From positions 1-41,619 of IMG/VR virus record IMGVR_UViG_3300030419_004698: 41,619 nucleotides of DNA; one strand, written 5' to 3'. The stretch comes from a virus. A program made the translations under genes and the position numbers. Below are positions 3,035 through 19,037 of the stretch, in pieces. The number at the start of each line of letters is the position of its first letter. Position 1 is the stretch's first letter. The notes under the pieces are model-generated. The model saw nothing but the letters and a program-made list of their open reading frames with translations, was not told where the DNA came from and ran no database searches.

Positions 3035-3666
3035 GCGTAGCAGCTAAATTAATAATCGATTTTATAGCTGAGGATTCCGATAAAAGTGATTACAAAATCC
3101 TTGAGGATTTTATGGTCAATAAACTCTCAGCGTGGGATAAGAGAAGCGCTAACGAAATACTGGAAAGTGATCTGCATATAAACCGGTTGCGCGAAGACTT
3201 ACTAACAGCGAAAGAGGCAAAGCCACGCAGTCTTAAAGAGATAGTTACTATCCCTGCTGATAATTTTGAAATGGCCAAACAGGCCGCCACACTTCTCGAT
3301 CTGAATGAGTATCTGTATCAGCGGATATGGTTCACATTTATGGACGATCACGATATACCCGACGACTTTGAGAATACCGCCTATGGTAACGACGCAGCGC
3401 CGAGTATCTCACACAAATCAGGCCGCATTATGGTTTGGTTTCATGATCAGGACACATGGGATGATATCGGTTGGCACGACGAGCTGAAAAAATATCAGGT
3501 TCACTACCACCCAACCGAACAGGCATACGGTGAATATGGTGAAGGATATACCAACAAATCTGTAAATACCTGGGCTGAAGTCCTTGAGATTATTGAAGAG
3601 TGGCGTGCGACTCAGAATAGATTTGAATCGATAGTTAAGAAATTAAAGTGGTTCATAAAGGGGTAA
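3031..3666 (+). CDS. Hypothetical protein (211 aa)
   Basis: ATG 3031 overlaps the preceding stop; SD GAGGTGCAGTC. The N-terminal half is helical and charged. The middle holds an aromatic/histidine-rich segment (WFHDQDTWDDIGWHDELKKY, about residues 137-156) and the C-terminus a helix (WAEVLEIIEEW). The clustered Trp, His and Asp residues could be a metal or ligand site, but I recognise no family. Only 4 bases separate it from the next gene. Confidence 0.65.
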   Translation: MSVAAKLIIDFIAEDSDKSDYKILEDFMVNKLSAWDKRSANEILESDLHINRLREDLLTAKEAKPRSLKEIVTIPADNFEMAKQAATLLDLNEYLYQRIWFTFMDDHDIPDDFENTAYGNDAAPSISHKSGRIMVWFHDQDTWDDIGWHDELKKYQVHYHPTEQAYGEYGEGYTNKSVNTWAEVLEIIEEWRATQNRFESIVKKLKWFIKG

Positions 3667-3670
3667 TGGT

Positions 3671-4174
3671 ATGGAAATAGAAGTGAAAAACGTAAAATTT
3701 GTTGAAGCATTTAGTGAAGAAACTTTTTGTTTCACCGCATCAATTTGGGTTGACGGCAAGAAGGTTGGGGAAGCATCCAACAGAGGACACGGAGGACAAA
3801 CAGACCTTATATATAACGACGGCTACCCACACAAATCAGCGACCCATAAAGCTATAAAAGAATACTGCGAAACGCTCCCTCCAATGCAATCGGACATGGA
3901 AGTAATAACCTTGGAAGATGGCGAGGAAATTGACCGCAGTTGGACGATGGAATATGACCCTTATATCTTGATCGATGAATTGATAGGGGAGGAATATGAG
4001 AGGCAACAAAACAAGAAACTCTGCCGAGGCAAAACCGCCTTCCGAATGCCGAACCATGAATACGAAAGCAAGTATGAATACCACATCTTAAACCACAAAT
4101 ATACGCCTGCCGTAAAAGCGGAATTAATAAAAAGATATGGAGAGGAGGTATACATCTTGAACGAACATATTTAG
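3671..4174 (+). CDS. Conserved phage hypothetical protein (167 aa)
   Basis: ATG 3671 with AAGGGGTAATGGT upstream. The N-terminal domain is beta-rich (FCFTASIWVDGKKVGEASNRGHGGQTDLIY); the GHGGQTD stretch resembles small hypothetical proteins of large phages that I recall by pattern only. The second half is charged and helical and ends VYILNEHI. Function unknown. A strong hairpin (4190-4213) follows the stop. Confidence 0.65.
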   Translation: MEIEVKNVKFVEAFSEETFCFTASIWVDGKKVGEASNRGHGGQTDLIYNDGYPHKSATHKAIKEYCETLPPMQSDMEVITLEDGEEIDRSWTMEYDPYILIDELIGEEYERQQNKKLCRGKTAFRMPNHEYESKYEYHILNHKYTPAVKAELIKRYGEEVYILNEHI

Positions 4175-5051: not shown

Positions 5052-5422
5052 CTGTTAAATCCAGGTCCTACGGACATGAACACGAGGGGAAATATGTCAC
5101 GTATGATATATATCCCCACGAGGACAACATCCACGCGAAAGTAGAATGGAATGAATACGAAAACCAGTACGTCTTACAGAGCTACGGCGTATGGCGAAGA
5201 ATGTTTCAACTGGAAGGCACATCGAACTATCTTTTGCTTGGAGACTACGAGGACATTGATGTCCTAAAGGGTATTAATTTTATATCCGAGCAAGAGTTCC
5301 AGTCAGCTATTAACAACACGACATTCGCCGATCTGAAACTGTTAAATGTTCCCCTCTCAAAGTACCACTACTCGGATGCAGATATAGCAGAAATAAACAA
5401 AGGCATCGGGGAAGGTCCATGA
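5048..5422 (+). CDS. Hypothetical protein (124 aa)
   Basis: ATG 5048 overlaps the previous stop; SD CGAGGTGCATC. N-terminus rich in His and Tyr (YGHEHEGKYVTYDIYPHEDN), then beta-like segments (YVLQSYGVW, NYLLLGDYEDID) and a helical C-terminus. No recognised domain or membrane segment. Overlaps the excisionase-like gene by 4 bases, so both are probably translated together. Confidence 0.6.
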   Translation: MTVKSRSYGHEHEGKYVTYDIYPHEDNIHAKVEWNEYENQYVLQSYGVWRRMFQLEGTSNYLLLGDYEDIDVLKGINFISEQEFQSAINNTTFADLKLLNVPLSKYHYSDADIAEINKGIGEGP

Positions 5423-5754
5423 CCGAACAATTCTTTAACGCACGAGAGGCCGCCGATTATCTTAACCTGAGCCGACGCCAGGTAGACAGGTACATTGAGG
5501 CCGGCAAACTCGTCGCTGTCAAAAAGGGTGTGACTTGGCAGATAGCCAAGTCCGCCCTCGATAATATCCAACGCCCTCAGAGAGGCGGACACGACCGCGT
5601 CATGGTAGGTAGACTCATCAAGTCCCGAAAGAACGCGGAAAAACTGCTTGATGACAAGATGGATTCAGATTCCTGGACTGAGGCCGAGCGTGAAATTGTA
5701 CGAGGTGAGAGATCGGCATTTGATGAGGTGGCTAGAAAGTCTGGGTGGCAGTAG
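5419..5754 (+). CDS. xis: Excisionase-family HTH DNA-binding protein (111 aa)
   Basis: ATG 5419 in an ATGA overlap. Residues 1-50 (FFNAREAADYLNLSRRQVDRYIEAGKLVAVKKG...W.I...ALD) are a classic HTH_17/MerR-like winged helix used by phage excisionases: AREAADYLN is helix 1-2, SRRQVDRYIEAG the recognition helix, VTWQI the wing. The C-terminal half is a charged helix that could mediate cooperative binding. It is the last plus-strand gene before the attachment region and converges on the integrase, which is the expected place for a directionality factor. A regulator of the operon is the alternative. Confidence 0.75.
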   Translation: MTEQFFNAREAADYLNLSRRQVDRYIEAGKLVAVKKGVTWQIAKSALDNIQRPQRGGHDRVMVGRLIKSRKNAEKLLDDKMDSDSWTEAEREIVRGERSAFDEVARKSGWQ

Positions 5755-5769
5755 CTTGTGGTGTACAAA

Positions 5770-5794
5770 TGGGGTACATTTTTCATGTACCCCA
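5770..5794 (+). terminator. Intrinsic terminator of left operon
   Basis: Perfect 10-bp inverted repeat TGGGGTACAT / ATGTACCCCA with a 5-base loop (TTTTC), then GTGTTTTTGTAATTTTT. It lies 15 bases after the last plus-strand stop. The GTACAT arms also match the repeat motif found around the integrase end, so the structure may double as an integrase arm site. Confidence 0.7.
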
Positions 5795-5911
5795 GTGTTT
5801 TTGTAATTTTTACCCGATTAAATTCCGAACCTAAATTTCCTGTTTTATAACTAGATGGCGGTTGTCATGTCGTCTAGTGTGGCGGAATGTACATCCATGC
5901 AGGTGGATTGT

Positions 5912-5953
5912 AGGTTTTGGAGACCTTCGCTCTACCAACTGAGCTACACCCCT
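5912..5953 (-). pseudogene. 5' half of tRNA-Trp(CCA): putative attP core
   Basis: Read on the minus strand from 5953: acceptor arm AGGGGTG, TA, D-arm GCTC-AGTTGGTA-GAGC, then AAGGT, anticodon loop CTCCAAA (anticodon CCA at 5920-5918) and ACCT. After the anticodon arm the similarity stops: there is no TTC-containing T-arm and no matching acceptor 3' strand. It is therefore a fragment, not a functional tRNA. Homology to the start of a tRNA rather than its 3' end is uncommon for an attachment core; integration here would make the phage supply the 5' half and its transcription. Confidence 0.75.
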
Positions 5954-6009
5954 GTGATCAATGATTTAGCTACGAATTTACTTGTTTGGTCCACTCATCG
6001 GTTCCGAGT

Positions 6010-6033
6010 GGTGTACATTTTGGTGTACATTTT
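6010..6033. repeat. Tandem 12-bp repeat, probable integrase arm sites
   Basis: GGTGTACATTTT occurs twice without a gap, the second copy overlapping the integrase stop codon (6032-6034 on the minus strand). The same TGTACA core recurs across the tRNA fragment at 5760-5793. Arm-type sites bound by the N-terminal domain of lambda-type integrases are short direct repeats at such positions. Confidence 0.65.
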
Positions 6034-7354
6034 ACGCTCCGCGTGCATTCCTCAAGTCAAATTCACCCATCGCTGTATCCATTTTACTTGCAACACTCGC
6101 AACTTTTATATCTCTCACGTTGTCATATATTAACATTGTAGTTGATAGCTCTGTATGACCAAGCATTCTCATGATTACTTTCGGATCAACACCCTGTTCT
6201 GCTAACAGCGAAGTATATGCGTGTCGTAACTTCCTTAAAGTCATATCAGGGCGACCCATAGAGGAGCAAATAGTGCGGACAGTATCTGCAACCTTGTCGG
6301 GGTTTAGAAACTCTCCAATTTCGTTAGCAAAGACAAGTGATTCTTCAGTCCAGTTGTACTCGGCATTATCTTTTTGATATTGACGATGGTGGTCAAGAAA
6401 TATTTTTAATTTCGGAGATATAGCAGACCGTTCTCCGACACTTCCCTCGGTCTTTCCCCACGGTCTGATGTAATGTCCGACTCCCCTTTCCTTTGAGCGG
6501 ACGACAGTCTGATTAACTGAGACTATCTGTTGACCGTGCTTTTCTTTAATGTCCGACCATCTCAACCCCAAAACTTCACTGCGACGCAGACCGGTATATA
6601 TGGAAGTAATGATAGGACCTGCATGACGATTTGATCCAAGTAGTTTGATCAATTCCCTTAAATCAGAAGCGGATATTTCTTTTTCATTTCCAGGTCTGGG
6701 AACTTTCGGTGGTCTGATTTTATTTTGGCCATGCTGGTCAGCAAAAAGATGATACTTCAATATTCCCTGTTCAACACCGTACTCAATCGCTGCATGGTAA
6801 GAACGATAGTGATGCTTTACGGTTAATGGTTTCAGTCCATGACCACCTTCACTGACAGGCTTTTGCAACTCGGAAAAGAACGCCCCAAACATATGCTTGT
6901 TGTTTTCTAAATGGTGAAGAGTAGCAGCACCGAGTGGATGTGGATATTCCATAGTCATGTTGTCTTGATTTCTGACAGCTAGTTTTCTGATGTGTCCACG
7001 ATATCCAGAAGTCGTACTCCACTCAAGCAGTGAAACATAATTGTCATACCAGTAGTATAAAAATTCCCCAAAGGTCATCGTCGAATCACGCGGACTGATC
7101 TTCAGCTTTGCCTGCTCTTCAACTTCATCCTGTAATCTTTGACGTTCCCTTCTGGCACGTTCAATAAACTTACTATCCGCCTCGCGTTTACCGTCGATAT
7201 ACAGTCGCTTAATAGATATTGATCTCCCTTTGGTAATCCTGTTGCCGTACTCGTCTTTCCCCAATTCCAGATTCATTTTTATAGCGTCATCATGACGGTG
7301 ATAGGCAAGGTGCTTTGTAGCGTGGACCTTTTCTTTGAATGTCTGTTTTGCCAT
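6032..7354 (-). CDS. int: Tyrosine-family site-specific integrase (440 aa)
   Basis: ATG at 7354 with a strong SD (AAGGAGAGGACG). N-terminal arm-binding/linker part (residues 1-90), SAM-like core-binding domain (about 91-215) and C-terminal catalytic domain (about 225-415). Visible catalytic residues: Arg257 in TGLRRSEVLGLRW, a candidate beta-hairpin Lys at 301, Arg377 in LRKLRHAYTSLL, His400 in MLGHTELSTT and nucleophile Tyr410 in LIYDNV. The usual first His of the HxxR box is Arg374. It would recombine attP (just downstream) with a host tRNA-Trp gene. Ten bases separate it from the upstream regulator gene, so the two are co-transcribed. Confidence 0.93.
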   Translation of the reverse strand: MAKQTFKEKVHATKHLAYHRHDDAIKMNLELGKDEYGNRITKGRSISIKRLYIDGKREADSKFIERARRERQRLQDEVEEQAKLKISPRDSTMTFGEFLYYWYDNYVSLLEWSTTSGYRGHIRKLAVRNQDNMTMEYPHPLGAATLHHLENNKHMFGAFFSELQKPVSEGGHGLKPLTVKHHYRSYHAAIEYGVEQGILKYHLFADQHGQNKIRPPKVPRPGNEKEISASDLRELIKLLGSNRHAGPIITSIYTGLRRSEVLGLRWSDIKEKHGQQIVSVNQTVVRSKERGVGHYIRPWGKTEGSVGERSAISPKLKIFLDHHRQYQKDNAEYNWTEESLVFANEIGEFLNPDKVADTVRTICSSMGRPDMTLRKLRHAYTSLLAEQGVDPKVIMRMLGHTELSTTMLIYDNVRDIKVASVASKMDTAMGEFDLRNARGA

Positions 7355-7364
7355 CGTCCTCTCC

Positions 7365-8297
7365 TTAGTTCCTTAATGTCTCGTTGAGCTGATCTATTTC
7401 GGCAAAGAAAAACTGGACCTCGTTGCGTACTATCTCCCAGTCATCTGAAGTGAATGGTTCTTTACGATACAGAACGACCTTGACCGTGCCTCTCAGCTCT
7501 TCACCACCACTTGTAAGCCGTCTGTTTCTTTCAAGGTTGATCATCATGATTTGCTGGTGAAGATCATCACCTTTATCTATCGAGTTCTTTATTTCCTCTT
7601 TCAAATCATTAAGATCAAACACACCACCCACGGTCACCGCATAATCACCGTACTTATTATTCAACGCCTGAGTTAAATAGATGAGATAACTGGTATCACC
7701 CTGCACATATGTCTCAGGATATTCCTTGACCTCTGATCCATGCCTTACATACAGTGTCCGCTGAACCGTGAGCCGATCCCATCGAACCTCTCTGCGTAGT
7801 TTGTTGTACAAATGCGTTGCGAATGGCCTCATCTGCCACTGCCATTCATTGTTGGGGACGTAGACCCCTTCATTATTGGTTGGTTCTATATATATAGTGG
7901 GATCTATGTGATCGAGCGCCAACAAAAAACTCTTGTCCAAAAATTCAATTGCACTTGCGGGCATGGTAGCCCCATGCTTTTGAAGCATCTCAATTATTCT
8001 TTTTAATTTCGGGGAAAGTTCATCCTCTTGAAAAGTCTCAGGTGATGGCAGGTCAAGGTATTCAAACAGTTCTTTCATCAACAGGGGATCAAACTTTCGG
8101 ATCTTCCCATTCTCCATACGACTCAACTGCTGACGGCTGAGTTGAGTGCCATCGGCAACCTCTTGTTGGGACAACCCAAGCCTTCGGCGAGCCTGCACAA
8201 CAGCCCTTCCGACACTGCTAGGCACGGACTCCCCATATTGCTCAAAATGTTCATCTAAAAGATGGTCATCTGGTACAGACTTAGCAGTATTTATCAT
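7365..8297 (-). CDS. XRE-type HTH regulator with long C-terminal domain (310 aa)
   Basis: ATG at 8297. Residues about 28-75 form an XRE/Cro-CI helix-turn-helix (VVQARRRLGLSQQEVADGTQLSRQQLSRMENGKI). The remaining 230 residues do not show the Ala-Gly / Ser-Lys S24 peptidase arrangement of CI repressors; they contain an alpha/beta domain (TLYVRHGSEVKEYPETYV, VKVVLYRKEPF). It lies between integrase and a second HTH gene in the minus-strand lysogeny block, so a maintenance repressor or integration regulator is likely. The missing autocleavage domain implies an induction route other than RecA-stimulated cleavage, if it is the repressor. Confidence 0.75.
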   Translation of the reverse strand: MINTAKSVPDDHLLDEHFEQYGESVPSSVGRAVVQARRRLGLSQQEVADGTQLSRQQLSRMENGKIRKFDPLLMKELFEYLDLPSPETFQEDELSPKLKRIIEMLQKHGATMPASAIEFLDKSFLLALDHIDPTIYIEPTNNEGVYVPNNEWQWQMRPFATHLYNKLRREVRWDRLTVQRTLYVRHGSEVKEYPETYVQGDTSYLIYLTQALNNKYGDYAVTVGGVFDLNDLKEEIKNSIDKGDDLHQQIMMINLERNRRLTSGGEELRGTVKVVLYRKEPFTSDDWEIVRNEVQFFFAEIDQLNETLRN

Positions 8298-8418
8298 GGT
8301 ATGTTATCCCCCCTTAACATGGGACTTGTGACTGTGATTACGTTGTATAAGAAATGGGTGAGCAGTATGATCAACAGAAAAGCTGACGGTACTAAGAAAG
8401 TCATGGTAAGTATGGAGC

Positions 8419-8820
8419 TTACGCTTCCTGCGGAGTGTCCAGTTGCTGAACGGTGGACTCTCGATCAGTATTCCTCTTTAATTGCAGTTCGATTGAATCA
8501 AACACAAAATCTTGTTGCACTTCTTGAAGACGCCGAAGACCTGATACAAACAGCCATTCCCTCTCGGAAAGATCACCTGGAACTTCGTCAGCTCGGAGAC
8601 AGCCATGAGCTATCAGAGCCTCGATAACATCAAGACCGGCAACCCTTGCCAGATCGGCAACGGTATCAGCTCCGGTTCGGCCTTTATCTATAAGGTCCGT
8701 AACACAATGGGTGTGTTTGTTGGCCTCGATAGACCACCTTCTCGGACTCGAAAACCCTGACTTCTTGAGGCCGTCTTTGGCCCACTGAATCAGAGCCGTA
8801 TTCTTCTTGGATACGCTCAC
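8419..8820 (-). CDS. HTH DNA-binding regulator (133 aa), GTG start
   Basis: The minus-strand frame stays open to 9255, but the sensible start is GTG at 8820, preceded by AGAGAGGTGCAAT, the same SD motif as elsewhere. Residues 7-70 read as a repressor-type HTH (ALIQWAKDGLKKSGFS, then a recognition segment, GADTVADLARVAGLDVIEALI). The C-terminal half is helical and polar. Its promoter (8878-8906) is back to back with that of the replication operon, the typical place for the early-switch repressor. It is the strongest candidate for the prophage repressor. Confidence 0.7.
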   Translation of the reverse strand: MSVSKKNTALIQWAKDGLKKSGFSSPRRWSIEANKHTHCVTDLIDKGRTGADTVADLARVAGLDVIEALIAHGCLRADEVPGDLSEREWLFVSGLRRLQEVQQDFVFDSIELQLKRNTDRESTVQQLDTPQEA

Positions 8821-16368: not shown

Positions 16369-19037
16369 GAAGCCACCTTCTCAACGAGAACGCAGTTGAA
16401 TGTTCCCGTCCTTTCCGCCAGAGCATTCGGCGCACCGGCTGCGTCCCATGAATTAACACCAAAACTAAAGCCCGATCTTTCACGATCAAGCGTTACGTAC
16501 TTTGATACGGATCCAAACTTGAACTGGGTCTGAATTACACTCTCAACGAGTGACTCTATGTTGGAGATAACCGTCTCGATACTCTGTCCTGTATCCTCTG
16601 CCGTCTGCTCGATATCGATAGTCATCTGGTGTTCGTATAGAATGCCCGGCACCACGGCACCCTCGATAATGATGTCCTTTATCTTGGGGGTGTTTGTATT
16701 GGTTGAATCGTTCCGGTTGAGCTTTAGCATTATTCCGATATCTTTTGCGCTAACGCCAGCTCCCGATGCGAAATCTATTTTGCTCACAGATGATGTGAAA
16801 TCACCTAGGTCTACATCATCCCTGTCACCCCCATTAATCCCGTAGTGAAATTCAACTGTCTCATGTGATGCAGTCAGATCGTCTGCTGACAGATGAGCCG
16901 TAAGGAAATTCTTACTATTATGTGGCATACCAAGGTCGTAGTAGGGAAGCTCGATAAACTGACCATCTGCTGCACGTTTGATAGATACGCCTGATCTTGG
17001 GTTAACTAAGGGTTGTTCCAGAAACTCTGCATCACAGGTATTTGTACCTGTTCTCATAGAGAAGTGAAGCCTTGGAACGCCGTCATCACCGGAGCCAACA
17101 TCTATCCAGTCTATTGGCTGATCGGCAGTTGTGTTCTTATACATATGGTGCCAGCCCTTACCATTCCAGGCTAAAATTCTGGCATTTCTGTTCGCAGCTC
17201 CACCGCCGAGCGATATAAATAACTGGTCTCCTGAGCTTTTCATCCACCTCACGGGGCCAAGCATGTCGGATGGAACCCCGTCTCCATATGAAAGGCCGAA
17301 GCCCGATTCTATTATTCTTGAATTACCCTGAACGGTCATCTTGTAGATTGGAGCAGGGCTGTCATTATCAACGCCCTGTGCAAACCACAGACTACCTTCA
17401 TGAACTGTCATCCTTCTTCCGTTATGATCGCTTCCAGTCATGGGAAGGATTAATTGGTAAGTCCATGTTGATGGAGCGGTATCAATCTCATAGATACCTT
17501 CATGGGTAGCAAGGTAAAGTTTCTCTTCAGAGTCAATTCCCGGGTAAGTTGCCAGACCCTGTGGGCCATTACTTGATCGAATACTTATTTCCGCTGCCCA
17601 TACAACCCCTCCGTCAGTTGACGACACAAAATCAATTGTCCCATCATCTTCGTCCCACACTGCTGCTACGAGTTCTCCACCAACACTTCCAAACAAACCC
17701 GCATCAAACGGATCGGTAGTACCAAAATCAGCAGCCTTGTCGCTTGCCAGTTTGCCTTTTGCGATTATGGTACTTGATTCAGACCAACTTGCACCATCAG
17801 ATGACGTATAAGTTCGGTGGTCATCTCCCTGTACAACCATTGCAACAAGTCCCGCTGTGCTTGTTGTTATATCTACTGGGGTTACCGGATCTATTGCAAA
17901 AGCTGCCGCAGCAGAAAGGAAATCACCAGATATACTTGATGCCAGGGTATGGCTCATTGTTGTTGTCGTGCCTGTTGCAATCCTATAGGATGACTTATGG
18001 CTACGAGTGATACCTGTCCCTGTAGCAGCCATGCCTGATTGCTGTCCAGTGCCACTTGAAGATACTGCAATATTGTCATCACCTGCAAAGCCGTCGACAA
18101 CAAAATCACCGGCAGCAGTAGATACCGCATTAGATATAGTTGTACCGCTTGAATCTACTGAATTCGCAGTAGCCAGGCTTAGAGTGCCAGTATTAACTCC
18201 TCTAATATGGTAGGCTACAGCACTGATTTCATCGACAGCAGACCCGCTAACACTATTTAAACGACAGAAGAAGTAGTTGTCAGACCCTGAAGAAGCAGTT
18301 GGGTTTACTTTGTAAAATATACCCACTCCAGTATCAGCGTTATAAACATTTACCGCAGCATCCATAGATGTCCCGCCGCTACCGTTGGATGCAGCATTAT
18401 ATGCCATTCCAGTAATAGCATTTCCAATATTTGCGCCATCGGTATAAGTAACCACAACTACTAATAGATCAGTATTAGCCGTTACATTTACAACTGCTGC
18501 ATATTCGGTTTCATCTTCACCTGCTGCCATTGATGTCACAGTAGCAGATTGTGACAGGTACCCACCGTTTTCCCATGCGTCGGTTGAAGCTCCTGTAAAA
18601 AGCCTGTTAACCGCTCCTCTATTCGTTGCACCAGACCCACCAGCATCTGATCCAATGGTTTGACTCCATAGTGAATGCAATTCACCTTTATATGAAGCTG
18701 AACATTTAACTACATTAAGTCCTGACTGAGTGGCATTCTCAGCAAGGATCGGCAGATAAATCCTGTCCATCCATCTCGTATCACACGTTGAGTTAAAGAA
18801 CCTTCTGTATTCCTTGGGGTCAAAAGCAACGTCCGAATTTATCCTTGCCCTGCCAAACCCGTATGCAAGGTTCGGAACAACAAAAGATTCGTATGCAGCT
18901 ACGTCCTCCGGCCTCGTTCTTCCTGTATCCCTGATCGGCTGAACAAACTGCTGAACGGGGCGCGTGCTTACTTTCGTACCATCGCCACCGGGTACAAGGC
19001 TGTACTGCTTGGAGTTTATCTCGACATCGAGACTCAT
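16365..19037 (-). CDS. Large tail/receptor-binding protein with beta-propeller-like domain (890 aa)
   Basis: Start at 19037, immediately after the connector-like gene. Residues 1-125 look like an attachment domain. Residues 130-390 are Gly/Ser/Thr-rich beta sandwich (lectin-like). Residues 390-650 have repeats reminiscent of sialidase/BNR blades (YTSSDGASWSES, FVSSTDGGVVWAAE, LYLATHEGIYEID). The C-terminal 240 residues are beta-rich, ending in a helix-containing cap. Most likely a tail spike or adhesin contacting host surface sugars. Confidence 0.65.
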   Translation of the reverse strand: MSLDVEINSKQYSLVPGGDGTKVSTRPVQQFVQPIRDTGRTRPEDVAAYESFVVPNLAYGFGRARINSDVAFDPKEYRRFFNSTCDTRWMDRIYLPILAENATQSGLNVVKCSASYKGELHSLWSQTIGSDAGGSGATNRGAVNRLFTGASTDAWENGGYLSQSATVTSMAAGEDETEYAAVVNVTANTDLLVVVVTYTDGANIGNAITGMAYNAASNGSGGTSMDAAVNVYNADTGVGIFYKVNPTASSGSDNYFFCRLNSVSGSAVDEISAVAYHIRGVNTGTLSLATANSVDSSGTTISNAVSTAAGDFVVDGFAGDDNIAVSSSGTGQQSGMAATGTGITRSHKSSYRIATGTTTTMSHTLASSISGDFLSAAAAFAIDPVTPVDITTSTAGLVAMVVQGDDHRTYTSSDGASWSESSTIIAKGKLASDKAADFGTTDPFDAGLFGSVGGELVAAVWDEDDGTIDFVSSTDGGVVWAAEISIRSSNGPQGLATYPGIDSEEKLYLATHEGIYEIDTAPSTWTYQLILPMTGSDHNGRRMTVHEGSLWFAQGVDNDSPAPIYKMTVQGNSRIIESGFGLSYGDGVPSDMLGPVRWMKSSGDQLFISLGGGAANRNARILAWNGKGWHHMYKNTTADQPIDWIDVGSGDDGVPRLHFSMRTGTNTCDAEFLEQPLVNPRSGVSIKRAADGQFIELPYYDLGMPHNSKNFLTAHLSADDLTASHETVEFHYGINGGDRDDVDLGDFTSSVSKIDFASGAGVSAKDIGIMLKLNRNDSTNTNTPKIKDIIIEGAVVPGILYEHQMTIDIEQTAEDTGQSIETVISNIESLVESVIQTQFKFGSVSKYVTLDRERSGFSFGVNSWDAAGAPNALAERTGTFNCVLVEKVAS

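Follow-up and report, generated by a model that had tools for sequence, protein, structure and literature searches.

Positions 5760 to 6033 of the marine phage record IMGVR_UViG_3300030419_004698, analyzed here over its whole length of 41,619 bases (the window), very probably serve as the attP for a temperate phage of Chloroflexota from the SAR202 group, which integrates by way of a host tRNA gene and has the 5' half of that gene. In most phages that target tRNA genes, it is the 3' half that is carried, and the host gene regains its own promoter. The reading proposed here is carried by what was observed in silico, namely, the tRNA half itself, its exact match in a host genome, the products of joining the two sequences, and a like layout in integrated relatives. 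The integrase would recombine the anticodon region of the host tRNA-Trp gene and, because the attP carries bases 1 to 42, integration would split that gene. The attL, at the excisionase end, would receive the displaced host promoter and host 5' half, and joining of the phage 5' half to the host 3' half would make a complete tRNA-Trp in the attR, at the integrase end. Since the rebuilt tRNA-Trp would lie directly behind the repressor and integrase genes, the layout implies that its transcription would have to come from phage DNA.

The attachment region and the host tRNA gene

The putative attP core is the 5' half of a tRNA-Trp(CCA) at 5912 to 5953 on the minus strand (5953 down to 5912, AGGGGTGTAGCTCAGTTGGTAGAGCGAAGGTCTCCAAAACCT). 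It comprises bases 1 to 42 of the tRNA, and crossover would be expected in its anticodon region. The Rfam tRNA model scored 27.4 bits at 5882 to 5953 (minus), below the gathering score of 29, with a good fit in the 5' part only, and alignment of the window with the host tRNA-Trp gene showed no tRNA-like sequence 3' of the anticodon stem. On one side lies the gene of a tyrosine integrase (int) of 440 amino acids (6032 to 7354, minus; PF00589, E value of 7.5e-16), whose 3' end faces the attP. It is preceded by 10 bases and a codirectional gene for a repressor-like HTH protein (7365 to 8297, minus; PF01381, E value of 5.6e-10), with which it likely shares one operon. From the other side, an HTH_17 protein (5419 to 5754, plus; PF12728, E value of 1.3e-9) that we take as a putative excisionase converges on the attP. 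No terminal repeat was present at window ends 1 and 41619. The gene order of relatives (e.g., L012) joins both ends, so that the record is probably a cut circle or a permuted genome.

Six GTAC motifs were found between 5700 and 6100 (at 5763, 5774, 5787, 5889, 6013, and 6025), which are putative arm-type sites with a tandem beside int and a copy on the opposite arm. The integrase-side arm (6010 to 6033, minus) is a perfect 12-bp tandem of AAAATGTACACC (6010 to 6021 and 6022 to 6033), not reached in any of 200 shuffles, and overlaps the int stop codon by 2 bases. In the excisionase-side arm (5760 to 5794), AAAATGTACCCC (minus, 5771 to 5782) matches the tandem unit at 11 of 12 positions, and a single motif (5886 to 5896) lies between this arm and the core. 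The excisionase-side arm is less regular than the arms of relatives, which counts against the proposed reading. The preliminary description had already recognized the tRNA-Trp(CCA) 5' half, the six TGTAC/GGTAC motifs with their perfect tandem, and the limits of the region, and all of these were borne out. It had missed two features: a plus-strand terminator-like hairpin at 5770 to 5794, formed by the motifs of the excisionase-side arm, and the box TTCGTAGCTAAA at 5965 to 5976 (minus), a candidate accessory site that is conserved in related phages and has its center 51.5 nt from the center of the anticodon loop.

The host link comes from G587, a genome of the SAR202 order (Chloroflexota), whose tRNA-Trp gene is identical to the window over all 42 bases (43 with the preceding C), after which identity ends. 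A 37-base core of this gene was present in 6 of 247 genomes, G587 among them. When the window and the G587 gene were joined in silico at the anticodon, a complete tRNA-Trp appeared at the integrase-side junction (attR) only, and neither the other junction nor the attP held one. The most probable target is a G587-like tRNA-Trp, as judged from sequence identity. A search for prophages carrying this exact integrase at tRNA-Trp, suggested by the preliminary description, found none in the viral and genome contig collections, which counts against the proposed reading. Neither collection held a close relative of the integrase; remote relatives, with about 25% identity, were found among the phage records. 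Megablast of the att region against the phage records gave no match, and an exact 26-base tRNA pattern was absent from the viral contigs. The terminase had many relatives there (at least 80), and some of these contigs extend into the integrase region.

Related phages and integrated relatives

A common plan was found in the attPs of a group of nine phages, the window included, in the order int, tandem repeats, box TTCGTAGCTAAA, 9 to 11 bases, and tRNA 5' half. The tRNAs are Trp, Arg, Leu, or Ile (among them, Arg(CCT) in L008 and L009, Leu(TAA) in L074, and Ile(GAT) in L038 and L054), and eight of the nine attPs hold the 5' half only. The type of L084 (box at 3466 to 3503, minus) is uncertain, because its attP carries a whole chimeric tRNA, with an Arg(CCT) 5' part and a Trp-like 3' part. 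All nine have a tandem repeat with a period of 11 to 12, located 79 to 92 bases before the tRNA half (equaled in 0 of 200 shuffles). Its unit varies between phages and recurs on the far side with 10 to 12 matching bases. A pattern combining the box with the start of a tRNA was found in 10 viral contigs and in 4 stretches of the genome collection, all titled Chloroflexi or SAR202. The near copies L008 and L009 differ in their arm repeats (TTTGTCGGTGTT versus TTTGCCACTAAT) and are alike in the other parts of the attP, suggesting that arm specificity may change fast.

To look for integrated relatives, we used a profile built from nine such integrases; at a threshold of 1e-20, 70 of 250 SAR202-order genomes had a match. 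The 80 int loci examined (20 plus 60) were picked from the better-scoring matches with a complete C-terminal end and are not all of the matches. A complete tRNA lay within 400 nt of the int 3' end at 46 of them, codirectional with int at 13 (5' type) and convergent at 33 (3' type). The first 20 loci contributed 10 to this count (8 convergent and 2 codirectional); the others were left out, as the tRNA was farther away at L297, L305, and L308, and no complete tRNA was found at L298, L299, L301, L302, L303, L310, and L312. In the second set, 24 of 60 had no complete tRNA within 400 nt. Tandem arms between int and tRNA (shuffling, ≤0.05) were present in 11 of the 13 5'-type and 26 of the 33 3'-type loci. 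Ten of the 13 5'-type loci are robust, and the doubtful ones either have no arms (L329 and L344) or lie among other tRNA genes (L344 and L357).

The clearest integrated case is contig 55 of G434, where an element of 14.6 kb begins at an orphaned 5' half of tRNA-Thr and continues through int (17320 to 18240) and arm repeats to a complete tRNA-Thr (18349 to 18423). The displaced half (3755 to 3795, same strand) has 41 bases that match the tRNA-Thr at 98%, the first 37 being identical; it is preceded by different DNA with a TAGAAT hexamer and has no 3' half. Near-identical arm repeats (GTTGTCGTCAAA and similar) mark both ends of the element. In G469, the rebuilt tRNA and the displaced half are split over two contigs. 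Displaced halves were not found for L300 (within 60 kb) or L315 (on its contig), and a candidate fragment of G527 at C39 was not confirmed as one. Comparison of attL and attR in the relatives showed the tRNA half in both, with the related integrases at tRNA genes, so that neither of the findings named in the preliminary description as refuting it was made. The arrangement that it put forward, in which phage DNA comes to lie before the rebuilt tRNA, is supported by the in silico junctions, the eight related attPs, and these two genomes.

Several elements and remnants were seen beside tRNA genes. Three stretches of G003 (L144 1 to 1750, C10; L181 1 to 900, C7; L182 12700 to 13500, C5) are short, have att-like ends, and lie beside tRNA-Trp, with the box, tandem arms, hybrid Lys/Trp tRNA remnants, and small cargo genes, without an integrase; they are possibly an array of integrase-less satellite cassettes. 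Two contigs of this genome (L144 end, C10, and L145 end, C8) terminate in the same tRNA-Lys(CTT). Upstream of one of these tRNAs, where no int gene is present, there are arm repeats and 18 bases that correspond to the end of an int like that of L084, resembling the scar of a lost 5'-type element. In G001, a 1.7-kb integrase-less element (L183 7000 to 9700, C8) lies at tRNA-Glu; the tRNA 3' half is present twice, each time with arm repeats GCCGTGTTTTT and the inverted box. In G002 (L188 12430 to 13462, C22), a tRNA-Ala 5' half has a promoter-like TATAAT and an inverted box, and a small codirectional tyrosine recombinase is found within about 200 bases past it.

Transcription of the rebuilt tRNA and the role of the box

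For the phage of the window, our first choice is that reading through the repressor and int genes would transcribe the rebuilt tRNA. No minus-strand terminator-like site lies between int and the tRNA half. A scan of the minus strand from 5750 to 8400 gave no sigma-70-like promoter, including the interval from 5954 to 6031 where the preliminary description had proposed to look for one, and read-through is thereby favored over a promoter in that interval. No promoter was recognized before the repressor gene either (8200 to 8800), so that the read-through step stands on the layout. In the SAR202 genomes, moreover, a missing promoter match means little, because the native signal is weak: -10 hexamers with 5 or 6 matches precede 56 of 85 tRNAs, versus about 42 in shuffles, too weak for a promoter test. 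Some relatives (L083, L084, and L089) have a perfect TATAAT about 125 bases upstream, and in these a TATAAT behind int may replace read-through.

The alternative for this step, which we consider possible if rather unlikely, is a local promoter between 5954 and 6031 that includes the box. It would agree with the position of the box, which precedes the tRNA half by 9 to 11 bases in every record in which its distance was measured, and with native tRNA-Gly(CCC) genes in four genomes, where the box is found upstream beside TATAATG. In addition, the tRNA-Arg(CCT) of SAR202 genome G001 agrees with phage L008 in its first 39 bases and in 57 of the 60 bases upstream. No other gene of this kind was among the 30 tRNAs read in G001, and no related integrase adjoins the G001 gene; this suggests that an upstream region of this kind may work in a living host, whichever direction the sequence moved. 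Against a local promoter, the best -10 match in the 60 bases upstream of the half in the window is 4 of 6, and in 3'-type sites the box is downstream of the tRNA with its distance to the anticodon kept, unlike a promoter.

This distance, from the center of the box to that of the anticodon loop, is 50.5 to 53.5 nt in 11 phage records, which include near copies, and 50.5 to 51.5 nt in three SAR202 host loci. The mirror layout was found in one phage contig, L287, with a tRNA-Glu 3' half, an inverted box at 51.5 nt from the anticodon, and an int (7020 to 8318) ending alongside. It was the only one of the 10 stretches found with the 3'-type pattern to have a related integrase. Inverted boxes at 51.5 nt also lie behind tRNA-Trp and tRNA-Glu in G001. 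The presence of the box on whichever side carries the half argues for an accessory site of recombination, not a promoter, and we propose it as a candidate for this role, although its occurrence at the native tRNA-Gly(CCC) genes counts against this, as does the enrichment of TAGCTA on both sides of tRNAs in G001 to G003 (7 of 101 on the upstream side and 9 of 100 on the downstream side, with about 1 expected in each case). We did not retain the idea that the box serves native tRNA genes in general as a promoter element, because it precedes a tRNA of the pattern in 3 of 250 genomes of the order and is near 8 of the 103 tRNAs read in G001 to G003. With a wider box pattern, 36 further stretches were found; they had no related integrase within 1.5 kb and were dropped as chance matches. 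A second box on the excisionase side was inconsistent between phages.

A tree of 40 integrases required 8 changes between the 5' and 3' types, versus 13.6 on average when the type labels were shuffled. At least 6 of them are forced by well-supported branches; the doubtful L344 and L329 (rows L386 and L384) and L084 are included, each of which could remove one change, and the phage rows drew a warning about long branches from the program. Given the near symmetry of the anticodon stem-loop, one int-arm-box module might be able to dock on either half of a tRNA, and the repeated switching in the tree would then be accounted for. Tentatively, and with more doubt than confidence, one may imagine a SAR202 integrase family that docks symmetrically on the anticodon and flips between halves, the box being mirrored at 51 to 52 nt. 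In its 5' form, the repressor-int operon would transcribe an essential tRNA, so that tRNA supply would be tied to lysogeny and decay of the front end of the prophage would be punished.

We consider it very unlikely that the tRNA-like stretch is a decoy or a leftover of a tRNA gene and that the true crossover lies elsewhere. Remnants linked to att sites do exist, as G003 has degenerate hybrid tRNAs between boxes and arm repeats, but the 42 bases of the window are all intact, identical to the gene of a living host, and placed exactly between arm sites as in the eight related attPs. A tRNA-dependent lysogeny, as known from mycobacteriophages (PMC10865867, in the part available), in which the host tRNA is destroyed and a whole phage-borne tRNA takes over, is extremely improbable, as ARAGORN found no complete tRNA gene in the 41.6-kb window and the in silico junction rebuilds one.

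Comparison with known integration systems

Integration through a 5' half, the reading preferred here, is of a known but rare kind. In the accessible part of a review that cites Williams 2002, it is described as seldom met in bacteria (PMC8371274). In a search mostly of literature open without subscription, we found no printed account of the 5' form as the main form of SAR202 phages, of the mirrored box, or of repeated switching, and the literature listings gave no dedicated study of SAR202 phages. The present analysis provides host links and attachment sites for these phages and raises two testable questions: what determines whether an integrase element has the 5' or the 3' half of a tRNA, and how prophage DNA can stand in for the promoter of an essential tRNA gene.

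Among islands, the available portion of the Islander report gives 159 of 3,919 (4%) with a 5' tDNA fragment (PMC4383910). The window shares with these a tyrosine integrase beside the att, a tRNA target, and an attP with a 5' tRNA fragment only. It would also share a rebuilt tRNA at one end and a displaced 5' fragment at the other, as predicted by the in silico junctions and as seen in the chromosomes of relatives G434 and G469. The 5' form, a minority in Islander as far as that portion goes, is the main form in the phage group of the window and makes up more than one-fourth of the tRNA-linked int loci examined in one bacterial order (13 of 46), a comparison that may be flattered because the profile was built from 5'-type integrases and one uncertain one.

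The sections consulted on the pTN3-like archaeal integrases describe an attB in the tRNA 5' half with 41 bp shared, and a rebuilt tRNA that has lost its own promoter and is placed downstream of that of the integrase (PMC8371274, PMC5495485). The phage of the window is like them, on that description, in using the 5' half and in that its rebuilt tRNA would lie behind int. However, the archaeal att is within int, which is disrupted on integration, whereas the attP of the window (5912 to 5953) is outside int (6032 to 7354). In the tRNA-dependent lysogeny of mycobacteriophages, the prophage rather than the host likewise secures an essential tRNA, but, as the part seen of that study has it, a whole phage tRNA gene is needed and no tRNA is rebuilt at a junction, unlike in the in silico junction of the window (PMC10865867). 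With classical 3'-half prophages, the window has in common the class of enzyme, the arm repeats, and the expected crossover at the anticodon, and its relative L287 is of this form. There the gene is rebuilt with its own promoter, whereas the attP of the window has no tRNA 3' part and would rebuild the gene with phage DNA upstream.
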